In this document: piece by piece, positions 23,527-36,875 of the stretch | Position numbering within the stretch: position 1 is the first letter of the stretch | How the letters are laid out: each line of letters begins with the position of its first letter | NCBI RefSeq assembly: GCF_001625215.2 | Contig: NC_030385.2 | Span: forward strand, 3,775,135 to 3,839,134 | Origin: Daucus carota subsp. sativus | Taxonomy: Eukaryota; Streptophyta; Magnoliopsida; Apiales; Apiaceae | Reading direction: 5' to 3' | DNA: 64,000 nucleotides | The notes under the pieces: model-generated | The model's input: only the letters and a program-made list of their open reading frames with translations | Told to the model about the DNA's origin: nothing | The model's database searches: none | Made by a program: the position numbers and the translations under genes

Positions 23527-23535
23527 AATTCATTT
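23527..23535 (+). repeat. Left target-site duplication of MULE 1
   Basis: AATTCATTT, identical to 31249-31257 at the other end of the element. Confidence 0.85.
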
Positions 23536-23624
23536 GAGAAATTGCCCTATATATCCTATTTTTATATATCTGATGCCCGAAATAACCAATATCGCTGTAG
23601 GGACCCAATTTACCCACAAGACCT

Positions 23625-23641
23625 CGCATCCAAGAAATGCG
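23625..23641. repeat. Single CGCAT-N7-ATGCG unit in the left end of MULE 1
   Basis: CGCATCCAAGAAATGCG, perfect, and extended by one more pair at each side (TCGCAT..ATGCGA), about 90 bp inside the left end. Confidence 0.85.
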
Positions 23642-24481
23642 AGTATGATGTAAAATAAAACCCTCAGCTGCTCCTACTTTCCTTCTATTTCGCTCTCCTG
23701 CTAACCCAACATATACACACAAACCCAACATATACACACAATTCACGCTCAATTGAACAAAGTGCCTTCTTATATATATCCTCTCCGTTGTCGGTGCTTT
23801 TCGAAGATTTTTTACTGTCAATGAAGACTATATCAATTTAGGAGATCAACTTCGACTATATGTAAGTTTTAATATCACTTTTGGGGCTTTTTCATATTGA
23901 ATTGGCTTGAATATATTGTGATATAGTGACATTTATAGGTTTTGTTGGTGAAATTTAGTTGATATTTGTTATATTGATTCCGTCTTTGAATTATTTGTTG
24001 TTGCAGATTTTAGTGTTGATGCAGATGCTTGTGTTGATTTTAGTGATGATATTGTTTTGTTGAGTAAGACTAAGGTCTCGTTATGGCAATTATCACTAGA
24101 AATTCATGTTTCCAACTCAATTGGATCAATTCATGTTTATATGTATGTTGATTTTCAGTATTATCTGTTATTTAGTTAAATATGCATAATAACTGCATAG
24201 GATTTTGATGCCAATTTATCAGAGTTGTGTATTCTGGTCATATTTCAATTTTATTAGTTTATATGTGTTGTTGTAGCAATTATATAGTGTTTATATCGTT
24301 GTGAAATACAATTTTAGAACTTAGGAAATGCAGCTTAACTATATAACTACCTCTGAACCTACTTAGAATACAACTATGAAGTTGCTTCGGTTGTAATTAT
24401 TTTAACTAATTTAAGGTTGTTTAGTTAGTTTTACAGCTTTTATATATAATATCATGTTTGTATTGGTTGTCACTGCAGATT

Positions 24482-26967
24482 ATGGATCCTAACGATGAAT
24501 TAACCATGCATCCTGGGCCTAAGATTCCTTCTGTGCTCCACTTACAATCAAGTCATAGATCATCTACTGTTTGGGATGTTTGTGGTGGTGATGCTCACAG
24601 ATCTAGACGGCGTAATCCTACACAAGCTAGATTTCCTCCTTTACATGAGAGCATGATTCCTATTCTAGAGGACTTAAGATTTGATGGGGTTTCTAGGCTT
24701 TCCTGTGTAAATATTGACTGGAGCTTAATTACTGCATTGGTGGAACGTTGGAGACCTGAAACACACACATTTCACTTACCATTTGGAGAGTCCACCATTA
24801 CCTTGCAGGATGTTGCTGTTCTACTTGGTTTACGCATAGATGGTGACGTAATTACTGGCACTACTGGTGGATTTGAGGGCGGCTGGACAAATCTAGTTGA
24901 GAAGATTTTTGGAAAAAAACCTAAAGAAGATAAAGAGTTAAAGGGTGGACGGTTACTATTGAGCTGGTTGACTTCAACTGTCAAAGAACTACCTGCTGCT
25001 CCATCTGATCAAGATATCCAACGTTATACTCAGTCCTATATTCTACAATTGATTGCAGGGATTCTATTTACTGATAAATCTGGAGGTCTTGTGCACTGCA
25101 TGTACATCCCGTTGATACAAGACTTTGGGCGTTGCAGGAATTTAGGTTGGGGGGCTGCTGTACTCGCATATTTGTTTAGGGAGTTGTGTAAGTCCTGCAG
25201 GTCTGGAGTTGAGGAGATGGCAGGTTGCGTTCTTTTATTACAACTGTGGGCTTGGACCAGGTTGCCGTTCTTAGCACCCGTTCCTCGTGGTCCAGTTTCG
25301 GAAACTTTGGATAATCCTTTATGGAGTGGTCGAGCAGGTCCTTATGGAATGAGATGGTGTTTTCATTTAAAATTCACCGATACAAGTTCACATGTCCTCT
25401 CCACTCTTCGGTTGTCTTTCGATGCCCTTTCACCCTCTCACTTTGAATGGCAGCCATATACGGAGGGCGTTCTTTCAAATCTGTCCGAGCATTGCAGAGA
25501 AGGTTCTGAAATTTGGTGTTATAAAGGTCCTTTGATTTGTTTTCACATCGTTGAGCCACATTTACCGGACAGATGTATGAGACAGTTTGGAAAGGTCCAG
25601 GAAATACCAGTTAATGAAGAATATTCGAAGGCACTTCATGAAATAAATTTACAGGGGAAACAGTCCACGAACTGGATTTCTATGCATGAGCAGCATATTA
25701 CACATTGGAATCATCGACAAGAGCATTTGATTGGTGTTACTGCTCATTCTGGTGTCGGGGTTGTTGATGGATATTATGAGTGGTATACAAACATTACCCG
25801 CCGGTTTCATACTCGTATTGCTGGCTCACACTTTTATACAGTAATTCTACTTTCTTTTCTTAACTGGTCTTAATTAAGTAGTGTGATTAAGTAGTTTGAT
25901 GGATATTTCTTATTGCTCGGTCGTCATTTCCTTAAGATGTAGTATGATTTTATTTGGTCAACTTACTTTATTTTTGTATGCTTATGTTGTTTTACAGCTT
26001 GATATGTTTGATCACATTGCTTCTATAGCAAGGGGCGAGATAGATGGAAGCATTGAAGATATTGCTCATTTGTGTGCACATGCAAGACAACTTGTTAAAA
26101 ATGCATTCAACTACGGTGTTTTTCAGGATTATCCTGTAAAAGATCGACGAGAAAAAGAAATTTTAAAGAGACCAAAGCCAAAAAAAGCTGGCCACAAAGG
26201 CGGACGTGGCGGAGTTAATGCACCGAAACAACAAGGGATTCAGGTTGATGATATACCTCATGGGGATAATGTGGAAGCTGATATTGTTGACGAGAATGTT
26301 GAAAATTTGCAGGGAGGTGAAACTGTGCCAGGTGGTGTACATCTAGAGCATCCTGAGATTCTAACAGAAGTTAATCCTACACCTTTTGGGTTACCTAACT
26401 GGAATTTATTACCTTCTGGAGACTTTTTACGGATGTCCAATGATGCCGTTTTATACCATTCGCCTGATCGATCAATTCCACATGATCCTGCACCTAATGA
26501 TCATTCCCCGATATCTCACCCCACATTTAACTTGATGTCTCAGTCCCCTCCTCGACCGCAATTAATGCAGCAGAAGCAGGTATCACCTCCTGCAGTCCTT
26601 GGTATGGTGACACCAGCCCCCGCCTTTACTGCGGGTTCCAGCTACGAACTACATACCTCAGTGCAGCGATATTCAGTTCAACCGCCACCTTCTGTAGTGC
26701 AGCAACCACCATCTGTAGTGCACCAACCACCACCACCTTCAGTCCAGCCACCTTTGGTGCAAGAACAGCCAGCTGCAGGTCATCACAATATGAAGTTGCG
26801 AGAGCGTAGAAGCCGACATATGAATTGTGGAACCCGTGGTAAAAAGGTTCCTGATTGCAAGCGACTCAGGTGCGATATAGTTTTGTATAAAGTTCTTCTT
26901 TTTTTATTTACATAGTTTAATAATCATCATGATATTTCTTCTATTTTTTTAAAGGTACAAGTACTAA
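24482..26967 (+). CDS. Plant mobile domain (PMD, MAIN-like) protein carried by the MULE
   Basis: Exons 24482-25840, 25998-26869 and 26955-26967 give 747 residues. An acceptor CACTGCAG lies four bases before the ATG, so at least one 5' leader intron is likely. The first 450 residues are a plant mobile domain: FPPLHESMIPILEDLRFDGV, a conserved W-R-P-E-T-H-T-F-H-L-P-x-G-E block, then T-L-Q-D-V-A-V-L-L-G-L. This is the domain of MAIN and MAIL1, nuclear proteins needed for silencing of some transposons and for genome stability; other PMD copies reside in transposons. Residues from about 500 on are basic (KRPKPKKAGHKGGRGG), then acidic, then proline-rich, ending HNMKLRERRSRHMN and RLRYKY. Two alternative last exons are possible (acceptors before 26955 and 27121). 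Its place between the element's ends, converging with the transposase, shows that it is cargo or an accessory gene of the MULE. Its role in transposition is inferred. Confidence 0.85.
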
Positions 26968-28080
26968 GGTAGCAACAATTACAAGTATTAGGATTACCTT
27001 TTGGTGAGTTTTATTTTCACTTTCTTTATATATTTTGTCCAGCTTTATTTTGCAGCTTTCATCCTTAAGATTGATTGGAATGTGGTACATCATTTGTAAT
27101 ATTTTTTGCTATATGTGTGCAGGAAGAATTATTAAAATAGCAGCAATTACCAAATATGAAGATGTTGATGTGAAGCTTGATACTCCAGTTGAAGAAATAA
27201 TAATAGAGCAAGGGACTGAAGTTGTTGAAAAATAGAAAATGGTTGATTAGTTCTAGTGATGCCACGCTTTTGTAGTTTTTGGAAAAGATATCTAGTAGTG
27301 TAAACTGGCACTTCTAGTATCTAATTGTAGTATATAATTGTACTTGATAATGCTCTGTAGTGATGAAAATTATCTAATATGAAAATGACCTTACTAGTTA
27401 CTTATTTGGTGCCATTCCTCCTATCGATTTTCTTGTTGTTTGCTGAAATTAATTCTGTAGTTTTGTACCCATTCTGTGTTCTTGAGATTGTGGATGCATA
27501 CACTACTGTACTAGTGTATACTGACTTCTTTAAAAGTTATAGGCCAACAACAAGAATATAACTGTTACAGCTGAATAACATAAACCAGAAAAAGTTTAAG
27601 TAAATTATTGATCAAGTATAATACCCTCTGCAAATTTGCAACTAAAGTACCAGGTCAATTTCAAAGAATCTGCATAAACTAATCATTAAAATATGAGAAA
27701 AAAAGGCAAGATCTAGTCAACAACATCTACACAGCAAGAAACCAGAATGAAGTTTCAATCTTCATCAAATTATCATATTCAATATCATAAACCCAAAAAA
27801 ATTGCAGAATATTACAGACCAAATATCTGCAATCCTCTTAACAACTCCGCATAAAAATTATAATTTTGCATATTAAAAATACCAATTGCAGGGCTCATCA
27901 ACCAAATTCTGCCAGACCATCATCATGTTCTAACCATTCATAGATTTACAGATTATTGTCAATAAATCTGCCACAAATTTAACATTCCAATAGCAGTGAC
28001 TACCATAAAAACATCAATATCTGAAATACAAACTAAGACTTTAAATCCTTATATTCTAGTACAAATAAAAACAGAATGAT
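26968..28080. other. Central intergenic part of MULE 1
   Basis: 3' ends of the convergent PMD and transposase genes. GTACAAGTACTAAGGTAGCA at 26955 and GAAGAATTATTAAAATAGCA at 27121 are diverged duplicates, each after an acceptor, so the last PMD exon has been duplicated. A short open frame at 27035-27235 follows the second copy but is not clearly coding. Nothing else is recognised. Confidence 0.5.
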
Positions 28081-30610
28081 CTATGGAATACTTGATGAAG
28101 CTCCGCTACAAGAAGTTCCTTTGCCTTTTCCCAGTGCTTGATAATCCATTTCATTCTTGTACCTTGTTGACTTCCTTCGCCCCGCTTTTTTTGTAATGTT
28201 CTCATCATCATGCAACACCAATGGAAAACCTATCAATGAAGGCCAGTCACTCTGATTTAAGATTGGTTGAAAGTGCCCTGCATAAACTTTTCTTGCATTC
28301 TCTAGCTTGTAACAGTCATCTATGAAGCTTGTGTATTGCAATCCTACATTAGCACAACATGCAAGTACATGGGAACATGGAATATGATATGTTTGCCACT
28401 TGTTACAAGTGCAAATGTGATCATGTAATTGCACAATTTGTTTGTTCCCACCCTTTTGACCATGTTTCATTGTAGTAACCTCAAATACCAAAGTATTCCT
28501 ATCAAACAATCTCACATGATGTCCACTTGCACGCTTTATCCATTTGGCAAGAATCTGATTTGCATGTTTGGTGAACTCATTCCCATTAATGCTTTGTTTC
28601 TCAATCTCCACCCTGCGTTGGTCAAAGTAGCTAACCACCTTATAAAATAAGGAAGTAACTAATGCAGTGATCGGGAGTTTTCTCGAAGCTTTAATGGCAT
28701 TGTTCCAACTTTCAGCCATGTTCGTGGTCATGATACCATATCTCTTGCCTCCATCATATGCCAAAGTAGACTGTATTGGGTTGATTTCACTAAACCACTC
28801 ATCAGCTCTTGGCTCAACTGCCAATAATGCATTCCAATGCAAATTTGACTTGGCCACAGTTAATTGGCTACACATTGCAACCACCCTATCCTTCAAATTG
28901 ATTTTCTTGAACTTCTTGGCAAAGTTAGCTGCTAGGTGTCTCACACAAAATCTATGATGCCCAAGTGGCTCACACCAACCAACTGCAGGGTTGTTCATAG
29001 CAGAAATGATTCCCGCGTGTCTATCAGAAATGACGCACACTCTTGTTCGCTCTGCAACTACTACCCTTCTCAATCTCACCATGAACCAAGTCCAGCTTCC
29101 TACATTTTCCCCCTCGACAATGGCAAAAGCAACCGGAAGAAGGTGGTAGAAGCCATCAATCGCTGTAGCTGTAAGCAAGACCCCACCATACTTTCCATAT
29201 AGATGTGTACCGTCAATCTGAAGTACCGGTATGCAGTGTGCAAATGCATCTATGCAAGGCTGGAATGTCCAAAAGACTCGCTTGAATCTCACCACCTATA
29301 ACATATTTCACACAATTTGAATTAATTAAAGGGTTAGAGTTCACTGTTCCTTCTTAGGTTTTAGAAATATTTATAAAGACTGATAAAAAGTACAACGAGT
29401 TAGGATCCATGTCATGTCATGCTACCTCAGATATAGGCTGTCTCATGTCATGCTCCTTGAAGTACCAATCAATCTGTGTGCCAGGATTGGAAATCTGTAG
29501 AGCATTTAAAAACAAAGGAAGTTTCTGATACGACTGCTCCCAAGACCCATAAACTGTATTAGTAGCAATCCTTCTTGCATCTCTAACCTTCTTCTTTGAT
29601 GGTGTATAACCAAATTCCTTCACAATGGTAGACACTAACACCTTATCTGAAACTGAAGGATCTGCAGCTATAAGGCCAGTAATGATTTGTGCAATATTTG
29701 TAGAATTCAAATTGTGATGATCTTGTGATATAGACTGATTGAGACAAGTGTGCGGTCCCTTAGTGGACATAATTTCAAAACAACTATGTGTTGCCCTCTT
29801 TCTGGCCCTCAACTTCCATCGACAACCTGTTGTTGCCAATTTGCATTCCAAATCCCAAGTCAATGGATCAGACCTTACCACTTTGAACTCTTGATGATTG
29901 GCTATATGAACACGCTTTACCACCTCCAACAACTCCTCTTTTGTCTTAAATACCATTCCCCTTGTCAACTCTGCTGGATTATGCAGATCACCAACCTTTT
30001 GCATAATTGGCTCCTTATATGAAATTACCATTGACGAGCCATCAAATGACCTATAATAAGGTATATCATCATCTCTAAACTCACTACTTCCTCTTGAGTT
30101 GCCTTCACTATCTACCCGAGACATATATAGTGACCTACTTGTACTACTGCTTGAAGTATTCTCACCTTGCACACTTTGTGAGTTGTGTGAAGTTGAAGTA
30201 TTTTTAGAACTTTCACCCGTTTTCGAACATTGAACCACATCATTCGAATTTTGGACCGTATCAATTGAAATCTTTTCCACATAAAGCTCCACATGAACCT
30301 TACTACCCGAACCATCTAAAGATTCGAACATATACTCAACGTCATCATCATCAACAATTGGAGCAACAACAAACTTGTTTGTCGTAGTATTTAAAACTCT
30401 ACGCAGCAGTTTCAACTTGTACATACTCGGATCAATAAACAATTTTGCATACAAAAGATCCAATAATCCTCCAAACTTCAAATTGAAGAGCAACTTCACA
30501 AATCGAATAGGATCTTTATCGTACGTAGAACCAATAACACTATTACTGATAATGTTACCATCATAATACAACCAACACATCACATAATTTGAATTAGAAC
30601 CAGAAGCCAT
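28081..30610 (-). CDS. MULE transposase (MURA-like, DDE with SWIM zinc finger)
   Basis: Two exons, 30610-29426 and 29295-28081, give 799 residues with phase 0 at the join (PISE|VVRFKR). Order of domains: an N-terminal region of unknown role with a Ser-rich linker; a Mutator DNA-binding zinc module (GMVFKTKEELLEVVKRV, then C-x(5)-C with WKLRARK, then H-T-C); a DDE core with D423 (QIDGTHLYGKY), D486 (VISDRHAG) and E590 (TTNMAESWNNAI); and a SWIM finger (C-T-C-N-K-W, then P-C-S-H-V). All catalytic and zinc residues are present and there are no stops, so it is probably active. MURA enzymes cut both element ends and join them to target DNA, making 9-bp duplications like those seen here. Its upstream region is the motif-rich right end of the element. 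The product should act on MULE 1 and on the derivative next to it. Confidence 0.93.
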
Positions 30611-30812
30611 TATCAGTACATTATTGGAAATTAGGGTTCAAAATACTCGTGGCCGAAAAGGAAGAAAAATAAGAAGAAATTACATGCTTATATCTAATTT
30701 ATAATGAAGCAAACAAACGAGAGTAAAAGATTGTACCAGAGCATGTTTGTTGACACATTGTTGTGAATAGGCAGTAGACAGACGAAGAAAAGGGTAAAGT
30801 AATGTCTTTACA

Positions 30813-31160
30813 CGCATTTTTTATATGCGTAATCACAAAACCGCATCTCCTGGATGCGAATGCCAGAAAGATACACGCATTGTTTAAATGCGAATTCACA
30901 CATTCGCATTAGATGGATGCGTTTCCTTTGTCAAATTTGATTTATAAGATTAACTAAAAACGCATTAGACATATGCGTATGTCGACCCTCGCATTACCCA
31001 TATGCGAATATCTAATTCTGGATTACATAATTAAAAGAAGACGCATCCTGCAAATGCGAATATGAGGCTTGTGAATCTGGGGTGAGGATTTTGGTAGGGT
31101 ATATCACGCATCTTATGAATGCGTATGCGAAGAATGGAATACACGCATCTGCTGAATGCG
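30813..31160. repeat. Array of nine 17-bp palindromes CGCAT-N7-ATGCG
   Basis: Perfect half-sites with exactly seven spacer bases at 30813-30829, 30842-30858, 30876-30892, 30905-30921, 30961-30977, 30990-31006, 31042-31058, 31107-31123 and 31144-31160. Spacers differ in every unit. Start-to-start distances are 29, 34, 29, 56, 29, 52, 65 and 37 bp. A tenth perfect unit is in the other end of the same element (23625-23641). The array lies in the promoter and leader side of the transposase, between its start codon and the element end. The constant geometry with variable spacer is what a dimeric DNA-binding protein would select; a role in folding or small-RNA production is the alternative. Confidence 0.92.
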
Positions 31161-31248
31161 TGTTTGTCTGGTTAATTTGGGCCCCTGCCGCGCCCCTGGT
31201 TAATTTGGGCAACAATTATTAAAAAACAGTTATTTTGGGCCTTCACCC

Positions 31249-31257
31249 AATTCATTT
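31249..31257 (+). repeat. Right target-site duplication of MULE 1
   Basis: AATTCATTT, matching 23527-23535. Only 19 bases separate it from the duplication of the next element. Confidence 0.85.
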
Positions 31258-31536
31258 CCTCATTAAATATCATAACTATATACTCGGGTGAAAGCCCAAA
31301 ATAATTATTTTTTTAATAATTAGTGTCTAAATTAAACGGGGGCGGTGTATGTGCCCAAAGTAACCAGACAAACTCGTATCTGCTGAATGCGTATATACCA
31401 TTCTCCGCATACGTATCCATAAGATGCGTGATATACCCAAAATCTCAGCCCAAATACGCATCCATCGAATGCGAATGTGTGAAATCGCATTTTAAAAATG
31501 CATGTATTTTAAGGCATACGCATCCAGGAGATGTGG

Positions 31537-31784
31537 GGACTGTTTGGGTGAACTTAAAATAAGTGCTTCTTACTTAAAGTAAAGAAAGTAAAGTAGAAGT
31601 TAGAATTTAGTTAAGACTTATAAGTGATTAAAGTGTTTGGTAAAAAAGTAGAAGTCATCAAACAATAGTTGAAATTCTTAACTTTTTGTAAGTACTTCTC
31701 GACTTTTTACACAAACGGTACGAATAACTGCTTCTAACTTATAATTTCAGAAGGCGGGCTTAAAAAATCCACCCAAACACCTAC
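31537..31784. mobile_element. MITE nested in the non-autonomous MULE
   Basis: 248 bp from GGACTGTTTGGGTG to CACCCAAACACCTAC, flanked by GTGG on both sides (31533-31536 and 31785-31788). The uninterrupted version of the same site is visible in MULE 1 (GGAGATGCGGTTTTGTGATT on the minus strand near 30842), which proves the insertion. Its internal end sequence matches the MITE at 4880-5050. Confidence 0.8.
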
Positions 31785-31896
31785 GTGGTTTATGATTACG
31801 CATATAAAAAATGCGTGTAAAAGAAAAGTACTTTACCCTTTTCTTCGTCCGTCTACTGCCTATTCACAACAATGTGTCTACTGCTTATATATTATA

Positions 31897-32208
31897 CTCC
31901 CTCCGTCCCAATAAATAGTATACGTTTGGTGTGGACACGGAGACCAAGAAAAAGTGTAAAAAATGAGTAAAGTTAGATAAAAAATGAGTAAAGTGGTGGG
32001 ACTCATTTGTATTTAATTATAGATGTGTGATAGTGGAGGAAAGTAGTGGGTGTAATAGTGTTTATATTATTATAAAATGAAGATAGTGGAAGAAAATAGT
32101 TGGTGTAACAGTGTTTTACATTATTAAAAGTTGCTATTTTAGGAATGTATAGAAATGATGAGACGTCCCAAAGAGGAAACTGTATAGAAATGACCGGGAC
32201 GGAGGGAG
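31897..32208. mobile_element. Stowaway MITE nested in the non-autonomous MULE
   Basis: Starts CTCCCTCCGTCCCAATAAAT and ends in the inverse GACCGGGACGGAGGGAG. It is flanked by TA at 31895-31896 and 32209-32210. MULE sequence homologous to the transposase leader continues on both sides. Confidence 0.9.
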
Positions 32209-32802
32209 TAACGATTATATCAGCTGCCTTAACATACATGCTCTAGTACATTCTTTTGCTCCCGTTTGTTTACTAAAATCAACACATAATACATATCCAC
32301 AGAAAATATCCATATACAATCTGTTTATAAACACATATAAATAAACAACAAGCATCTGCATCAACAAATGATTCAAAGACGGAATCAATATAACAAATAT
32401 AAATTAAAATTCACCAACAAAACCTATAAATGTCACTATATCATAATATTCAAGGCAATTCAATATGAAAAACCTCAAAAGTGATATTAAAACTTACATA
32501 TAGTCGAAGTTGATCTCCTAAACTGATATAGTCTTCATTGACAGTAAAAAATCTTCGAAAAGCACTAGCACGAAGAGGATATACAAGACACTTTGTTCAA
32601 TTGGGCGTAAATTGTGTGTATATGTTGGGTTAGTAGGATAGGGAAATAAAGGGGAAGTAGAAGTAGTCGAGATAGTTTTATTTTACATCATAATCGCATT
32701 TCTTGGATGTGAGGTGGTGTGTAAATTGGGCACTTACAGCTACACTGATTATTTCGGGCATTAGTATATACAGTGAGGATATATAGGGCAATTTCTCTAT
32801 AT

Positions 32803-35609: not shown

Positions 35610-35706
35610 ACATATTCCAGGGTTTGGGCCCCAAATAACCAAATTTAGGGTGAAAATGCCCCAAATAACAAAATACCTGAAAAATGGCCCTCACTAACCA
35701 ATAGAG

Positions 35707-36781
35707 ACGCGTCTGGTGTAGCGTTTTTGTTAAAAAAACGAAAACGCTACATCGTGTAGCGTTTTATACTTTTTTAAACCTGACAAACGCTGCTACAAGT
35801 ACCGTTTAAGTTTTAAATTTTTTATTTAAAACACAAAACGCTATTTATATTAGCGTTTTGAGTAAAGCTTGCGTGGCCAAAGAGGGGGGTAGGGGCTTAA
35901 TGAGTTAACAGGCACAAAACGTTACTTCAACTAACGTTTAGGCCAGTTTACCTTCTTTTAATTTTCCTATTTTTATTTCTAATTTTTTTTTAATTTTATT
36001 GATCTATTTTATTTTGTGTTTAATTTATAATATCAAAAATGCTATACAAAAATACTTTTAGTTTTTAAGTATAAATTAATCATTCTAGAGCCCAAACATA
36101 AACCCTAAATGTTAATGATTGTTAATTTACTTTTTAAAACTGGTTTCTCAGCCTTTACAGCCTCGCATTAATTAGGGTTTAGGCTCGAGGGAGTAGGGCC
36201 TCTCAATCTTAAACCCTAACCGTCGGCCAATTTAATATACAGTACGAACTAATCATTCTGTAACCCAAAACTAAACCCTAAATGTTAACGGTTGTAAATT
36301 TATTTATTCCGCCGGCGTCTCGGCTTCAGGGCCTTCGGCCCTTCAGCCTCGCTTAATTAGGGTTTAGGCTCGAGGGAGTAGGGCCTACCGGCCCTACACC
36401 CTCAATCCTAAACCCTAACCGTCGGCCAATTTAATATACAGAACGAATTAATCATTCTGCAACCCAAACCTAAACCCTAAATGTTAACGATTGTAAATTT
36501 ATTTATTCCGCCGGCGTCTCGGCTTCAGGGCCTTCGGCCCTTCAGCCTCGCTTAATTAGGGTTTAGGCTCGAGGGAGTAGGGCCTACCGGCCCTACACCC
36601 TCAATCCTAAACCCTAACCGTCGGCCAATTTAATAAACAGTACGAATTAATCATTCTGCAACCCAAACTTAAACCCTAAATGTTAAACGTTAATTCAGTT
36701 AGCGTTTTTCTTTATTTGAAATATGAAAACGCTTATGCGTGTAGCGTTTTGGTTTATAAAAGAACGCTACTGCATTTGCGT
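35707..36781. repeat. Eight 17-bp units with CGCTA/TAGCG or CGTTA/TAACG half-sites
   Basis: Clear units: CGCTA-N7-TAGCG at 35745-35761 and 35839-35855; CGTTA-N7-TAACG at 35920-35936; CGTTA-N7-TAGCG at 36688-36704; CGCTT-N7-TAGCG at 36730-36746. Degenerate ones: 35707-35723, 35788-35804 and 36765-36781. Most are extended by runs of A before and T after (AAAACGCTA..TAGCGTTTT). The geometry, 5-7-5, is the same as in the MULE at 23536-31248, but the half-site is different. They lie only in the two end regions, not in the central tandem array. Confidence 0.8.
36060..36690. repeat. Tandem array with 199-200 bp period, about three copies
   Basis: The word AATCATTCTG(C/T)AACCCAAA recurs at about 36251, 36451 and 36650, with a diverged first copy near 36079. 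Each unit holds CGCCGGCGTCTCGGCTTCAG, GGGCCTTCGGCCC and CCCTAAACC/TTAGGGTTTAGG. The last two full copies are almost identical. Telomere-like words occur singly and are not a telomere tract. Confidence 0.85.
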
Positions 36782-36875
36782 CTGTACTTGGTACCGAGGG
36801 CCATTTTTACAGAAATGGTTATTTGGGGCATTAAGTCTGATATTTGGGTTAATCAGGGCCATCTTTCCATATTCC

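Follow-up and report, generated by a model that had tools for sequence, protein, structure and literature searches.

A transposon has to tell its own copies from the DNA of its host. Several described systems resemble the locus analyzed here in part. In CACTA elements (En/Spm with TNPA; soybean Tgmt*), subterminal repeats are described as asymmetric, family-specific arrays of short motifs that can form palindromes and are presumed targets of a protein of the element (PMC2613891). Tgmt* has 12 such repeats at the right end and 2 at the left (PMC2613891). The VANDAL elements of Arabidopsis, the targets of VANC proteins, are MULE-type and contain non-coding motif arrays that vary by family (PMC5735166, PMC10398659). 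Muta1, a MULE of Aedes aegypti, has nine subterminal repeats of 12 bp in tandem and TSDs of 8-9 bp (PMC5225508), and MULEs of grasses and Amborella are described as carrying the plant mobile domain (PMD; PMC5418596). The locus compared with these systems is an array of palindromes, CGCAT-N7-ATGCG, in a 64,000-nucleotide stretch of Daucus carota subsp. sativus DNA (the whole analyzed stretch is herein referred to as the window).

A PMD-carrying MULE and its neighbors in the window

The array lies in the element E1 (Table 1), which has the termini GAGAAATTGCCC and GGGTGAAGGCCC and the TSD AATTCATTT (23527-23535 and 31249-31257). The ends are degenerate inverted repeats, with 74 of 111 columns identical and a score of 105 versus a shuffle maximum of 48.5. 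Both ends follow one plan: 13-mers at 9, 39-40, and 67-68 bp, then a palindrome at 89-90 bp. MULEs are expected to have 9-11-bp TSDs, terminal inverted repeats, and a MULE-type transposase. Exact 9-bp TSDs were found in E1 and in its neighbors E2 and E3; the terminal inverted repeats, in degenerate form, and the transposase were both found in E1.

Both genes of E1 are open once spliced by eye, with their Pfam domains. The transposase (799 aa) matches PF10551 (MULE; 7.6e-17), PF03108 (DBD_Tnp_Mut), and PF00872, and its D/D/E positions were picked out by eye. It also contains a C-x6-C-x23-H-x-C finger (residues 256-289), which we take to resemble WRKY fingers. The predicted structure of this zinc finger was weak (pLDDT 64.5), and a fold search with that model gave no clear match. 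The second gene encodes a 747-aa protein, for which the sole match among the Pfam profiles at E ≤ 1e-3 was PMD (PF10536, E = 1.2e-83); as it is coded within the TSDs, E1 is a PMD-carrying MULE. Thus, the earlier note's identification of the element as a MULE that carries both genes was borne out by the TSD, the termini, and the Pfam domains. A pattern scan of 30610-30860 gave two TATAAA-like matches, one falling within the unit at 30813 and the other being the box in Table 1. The array stands upstream of this box, on the transposase side.

Table 1. Coordinates of the features in the window.
Feature	Position	Strand	Remarks
E1	23536..31248		7713-bp MULE; exact termini and exact 9-bp TSD
Diverged 13-mer counterparts, three	23544..23615	+	9-11 of 13 bases; left-end offsets 9, 40, 67-68
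Single unit CGCAT-N7-ATGCG	23625..23641		90 bp from E1 left end
PMD gene of E1	24482..26967	+	exons 24482-25840, 25998-26869, 26955-stop; splice sites by eye
Transposase gene of E1	28081..30610	-	exons 30610-29426, 29295-28081; splice sites by eye
TATAAA-like box	30698..30703	-	upstream of E1 transposase ATG; pattern scan only
Nine exact CGCAT-N7-ATGCG units	30813..31160		starts 30813, 30842, 30876, 30905, 30961, 30990, 31042, 31107, 31144; last starts 89 bp from E1 right end
Terminal 13-mer GCCCAAATTAACC, three	31170, 31198, 31228 (31170..31240)	-	right-end offsets 67, 39, 9
E2	31286..32797	-	internally deleted E1 relative, inverted; TSD TATATACTC; directly beside E1
E3	35620..36867		non-autonomous MULE, 1248 bp; TSD CATATTCCA; like terminal 13-mers

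The nine perfect units of the array and the tenth at the other end of E1, as reported in the earlier note, were all found to be exact. In total, the window contains 12 exact 17-mers, 10 in E1 and 2 in E2 (31457 and 31799); none are expected from dinucleotide shuffles. No one-mismatch units were found in E1. When spacers of 0-30 bp were allowed in the window, 12 matches were found at 7 bp, 1 at 4 bp, 2 at 13 bp (both overlapping units of E1 or E2), and none at any other length. A general palindrome scan of the window (arm 5, spacer 3-15, at least three within 800 bp) gave four entries, each from the E1-side array or an array in E3, and the same scan of 15 Markov-regenerated windows gave zero.

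The idea that the array is private to E1 did not hold. As expected of other copies of the family, E2, of which the earlier note says nothing, carries seven units (two exact, five with one change), and short MULEs elsewhere in the genome carry theirs. The terminal units are situated 90 and 89 bp from the ends in E1 and 87 and 90 bp in E2, which looks like a decayed copy. Two inverted-repeat insertions were also found in E2 (31895-32210 and 31541-31779); one has CTCCCTCCGTCC ends and presumably resembles a Stowaway MITE.

Geometry and placing of the palindromes in the genome

Across the 441-Mb genome, the pattern was found 834 times with N7, versus 71 times with N6 and 35 times with N8; control searches with the reversed pattern gave 18 (N7), 13 (N6), and 18 (N8). 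The proposed strict constancy of the dyad geometry was supported. Among the N6 matches listed, 31 of 50 places represent one fixed sequence, CGCATAATCGGATGCG, with the spacer AATCGG (e.g., C1:12442553-12442568), which therefore probably belongs to another repeat.

For N7, the matches listed comprise 50 of the 834 sites, all on contig 1 and forming 18 places, all of which were fetched. At least two exact units were found in 12 of these places and one in the other 6. These places, picked by N7, contain 52 units with a 7-bp spacer and none with spacers of 3-6 or 8-11 bp. The half-site centers are 12 bp apart, which is about one helical turn and not two, as had been stated earlier. The view that the spacer is free holds for the most part (45 distinct spacers among the 52 units), with the exception of the positions two bases from the dyad center, where Y (46 of 55 distinct sites) and R (48 of 55) predominate. 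In one place (L045, 1413-2060), dense TGCAA/TTGCA inverted repeats with several spacings were seen, unrelated to the 17-mer.

TSDs were searched for as exact 9-bp repeats located 80-99 bp outside terminal units with up to two mismatches. Such a pair was found in 6 of the 18 places, versus 0-2 of 18 for other distance windows, the 80-99-bp window having been set after E1 and L041 were seen. Five of the six (L041, L044, L050, L052, and L056) have MULE-like termini on both sides. The sixth, L053, was rejected as a TSD-bounded element because its 9-bp repeat fails to fit its own termini. The terminal sites of the five TSD-bounded MULEs are 82-91 bp from the ends, and 2 of the 10 terminal units have one mismatch. 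In a looser search for end words, with no null beside it, at least one was found in 13 of the 18 places; this search revealed no recognizable terminus in the other five (L045-L048 and L057).

Seven elements of 521-860 bp follow the plan of E1, including two (L053 and L055) delimited by end words only. At the GGGTGAA-like end, the first exact site is at 89 in five of the seven and a mismatched one is at 82 or 89 in two, with more sites behind; at the GAGAAAATGCCC-like end, five have an exact site and two a mismatched one at 89-91. Pairwise alignment of the seven elements gave similarity limited to short stretches, mostly near the ends. Thus, the half-site, the spacer length, and the position were kept while the rest was replaced. 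The earlier expectation that the 17-mer would be confined to one family failed in that it is common beyond the close kin of E1, and held in that the definable hosts are MULEs with like ends and the same placing; the family is therefore wider than noted.

Two coding sequences were observed at these places. A 29-residue piece of a PMD C-terminus (E = 1.2e-4) lies inside a short CGCAT MULE (L050, 4689-4775), a hint that this element may derive from a PMD-MULE. Another MULE-type transposase, with 26-30% identity to that of E1, lies outside the short element of L052 (613-2410).

Divergence and alternative spellings of the half-sites

Between E1 and E2, changes were found at 5 of 70 half-site positions, 4 of 42 spacer positions (the unit with the inverted spacer excluded; 11 of 49 with it included), and 75 of 660 other positions, without difference. 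In family A (L043, L056, and L058), the corresponding counts are 1/110, 5/77, and 21/1119. Close copies therefore give no sign of selection. Half-site deviations number 0 of 100 in E1 versus 5 of 70 in E2 (p = 0.011), a gap that could be explained by age together with the selection of exact units. The contrast between half-sites and spacers appears over longer distances, between units and between elements. Between the copies 30813 and 30876 of a tandem block, 20 of 20 half-site bases are shared and 19 of 30 others (p = 0.0016). Units were located via exact half-sites, which biases toward this contrast; the lack of one-mismatch units in E1 speaks against such a bias. The claim that half-sites evolve more slowly than spacers thus finds no support in E1 versus E2, the latter seemingly a decayed copy, and holds across barely alignable elements, where half-sites are retained and spacers are not.

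The E1 unit 31144-31160 and the E2 unit 31375-31391 have spacers that agree at 7 of 7 positions when inverted and at 0 of 7 directly, and their flanks are collinear (identical at 17/20 and 18/20 positions). The pattern resembles a minute inversion between the arms; such events at palindromes have been reported from plastid DNA (PMC2903610).

In E3, six inner units were found near AAACGCTA-N7-TAGCGTTT, with the distance from CG to the dyad matching that of E1. The cores at 35745 and 35839 are exact, and the units at 35788, 35920, 36688, and 36730 have one or two changes. The change in 35920 is matched in both arms (CGTTA..TAACG); in 36688, a Watson-Crick pair became T/G, with both half-site classes kept. 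At 87-88 bp from each end stands an imperfect terminal unit, ACGC-N10-GCGT, which is itself one base shorter than the rule. E3 also contains 199-bp tandem repeats (36068-36706), with the telo-box-like AAACCCTAA seven times on the plus strand and TTAGGGTTT three times.

Genome-wide, CGCTA-N7-TAGCG was found 797 times, versus 23 times for the reversed pattern. The AAACGCTA half-site with the 7-bp geometry is carried by L059, a relative with transposase and PMD, in six exact CGCTA-type matches and nine imperfect ones nearby. The transposase ORF of L059 shows 40% identity in the first part and 56% in the second (46/88 in the zinc-finger domain), and the PMD ORF shows 36%. Both ORFs lie between like terminal 13-mers, as in a PMD-carrying MULE; a target duplication of L059 was sought and not found. 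Its CGCTA-type arrays lie close to each end and also upstream of the internal transposase ATG, from -292 to -167. E1 has its transposase promoter at one end of the element and L059 has it inside; thus, in these two elements, the arrays accompany both ends and the transposase promoter. A third flavor, TTACGCTA-N7-TAGCGTAA, was seen at another locus (L060, 381-1329; enclosing element not delimited).

What is new is the re-spelling of a palindromic site code among related PMD-MULEs. We tentatively propose, at well short of an even chance, a lineage of PMD-MULEs whose dyad code is re-writable: all would share the dimer geometry CG-N13-CG, and their spellings (AYWCGCAT, AAACGCTA, and TTACGCTA) would co-evolve with the reader protein of the element itself, so that each family would mark and mobilize or un-silence only its own copies.

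Candidate readers of the sites and comparison with known systems

The 55 distinct sites, among which units of one element are kin, show a symmetric degenerate extension, AYWCGCATNY-NNN-RNATGCGWRT (left A41, Y45, W46; right W48, R48, T40; inner Y46, R48). No pairing excess over shuffles was found in them at dyad distances 1-3 and 9-12, the test covering positions outside the half-sites since the sites had exact half-sites at distances 4-8. A protein reading the halves separately predicts such symmetry, whereas a selected stem would predict covariation. Mirror symmetry without covariation outside the half-sites is therefore easier to reconcile with a protein dimer than with hairpins. This supports the compatibility with dimer binding that the earlier note had seen and disfavors the stem-loops it had offered as an alternative. 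A stem-loop function, be it as a cruciform in DNA or a hairpin in RNA, is in our estimate very improbable, as is template switching as the process that keeps the palindromes perfect. Such a reading would suit the folding of the ten 21-base units (each -4.1 to -6.2 kcal/mol as DNA), the exactly inverted spacer between E1 and E2, and the like changes in both arms of the E3 unit 35920. However, besides the missing pairing excess, a function by pairing alone would not need the half-site sequence to recur as it does, and the E3 unit 36688 lost a Watson-Crick pair while retaining its half-site classes.

We consider it rather probable that a protein encoded by the element, most likely its transposase, binds the palindromes as a dimer and that these sites serve in transposition and in autoregulation. 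A half-site (about AYWCGCATNY) would be contacted by each monomer, with the spacer length of 7 bp set by the dyad. Within the terminal repeats, one site at a near-fixed 82-91 bp from either end would place the protein in the transposition complex; the additional sites, multiplied upstream of the transposase gene, would allow the same protein to control that gene. The near-fixed distance from both ends in the short elements argues for the role in transposition. A case for self-control comes from the arrays at the transposase promoter, a link based outside E1 on one element, L059, without a detected TSD. As the reader, the transposase with its zinc-finger DNA-binding domain is the likeliest candidate, at just under an even chance; the PMD protein, acting in an accessory role, comes second and is unlikely. 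The transposase may instead recognize the terminal 13-mer, present thrice per end, with the palindromes read by the PMD protein, a division of labor like that of TNPA and the transposase in CACTA elements (PMC2613891). Also weighing against the preferred reading are the equal rates of change in half-sites and spacers of E1 and E2, the five places without a recognizable terminus, the six with a single exact unit, the imperfect terminal unit of E3, and the weak model of the zinc finger.

Binding of the dyads by a host transcription factor, the site of which was adopted by the elements for the transposase promoter, appears rather improbable. The arrays upstream of the transposase genes in E1 and L059 agree with it, but the distance of the sites from the left ends is near-fixed as well. 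Moreover, the same spacer occurs in another spelling at 797 sites, and the one large element examined with these sites is a PMD-MULE, which a single host factor does not predict. Anti-silencing is plausible, if somewhat unlikely, and is compatible with the dimer sites preferred here: the PMD protein or the transposase would bind the array, strip silent marks, and let the element be expressed, the differing code freeing each family alone. PMD genes captured by MULEs have been suggested to serve this role (PMC5418596), the targets of VANC consist of short repeated motifs that lie in non-coding DNA and diverge between families (PMC5735166), and reductions in methylation are reported for MURA and TnpA (PMC10398659). 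The differing half-sites of related PMD-MULEs also point this way. Against it, the 82-91-bp distance from both ends in the short elements suggests transposition and not chromatin only, and VANC21 motifs are described as lying in one orientation, without dyads (PMC5735166).

The candidate recognition sites are short, symmetric, present in hundreds, and found in at least two spellings in one genome, each in an element with transposase and PMD. With genes in hand for two spellings, it becomes testable whether a DNA-binding protein of transposons switches its specificity and what role transposon-borne PMD genes play.

CACTA elements are described with CACTA termini, 3-bp TSDs, and a repeated motif of 7-17 bp (PMC2613891). 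In contrast, E1 has a 9-bp TSD, a strict 7-bp spacer, and a MULE transposase with PMD, and its termini and TSD rule it out as a CACTA/TNPA element. Unlike the palindromes here, the repeats of Muta1 are direct and lie within long TIRs (PMC5225508). In the PMD-MULEs of grasses and Amborella, the PMD is described as fused to the transposase (PMC5418596), whereas the PMD of E1 is a separate gene. The VANC21 motif of VANDAL elements, YAGTATTAY, is described in one orientation (PMC5735166), whereas the half-sites of E1 are inverted and its accessory gene is PMD by Pfam. The VANDAL/VANC trait of non-coding arrays of short motifs that differ between families is present here as well, with CGCAT in one family and CGCTA in another.
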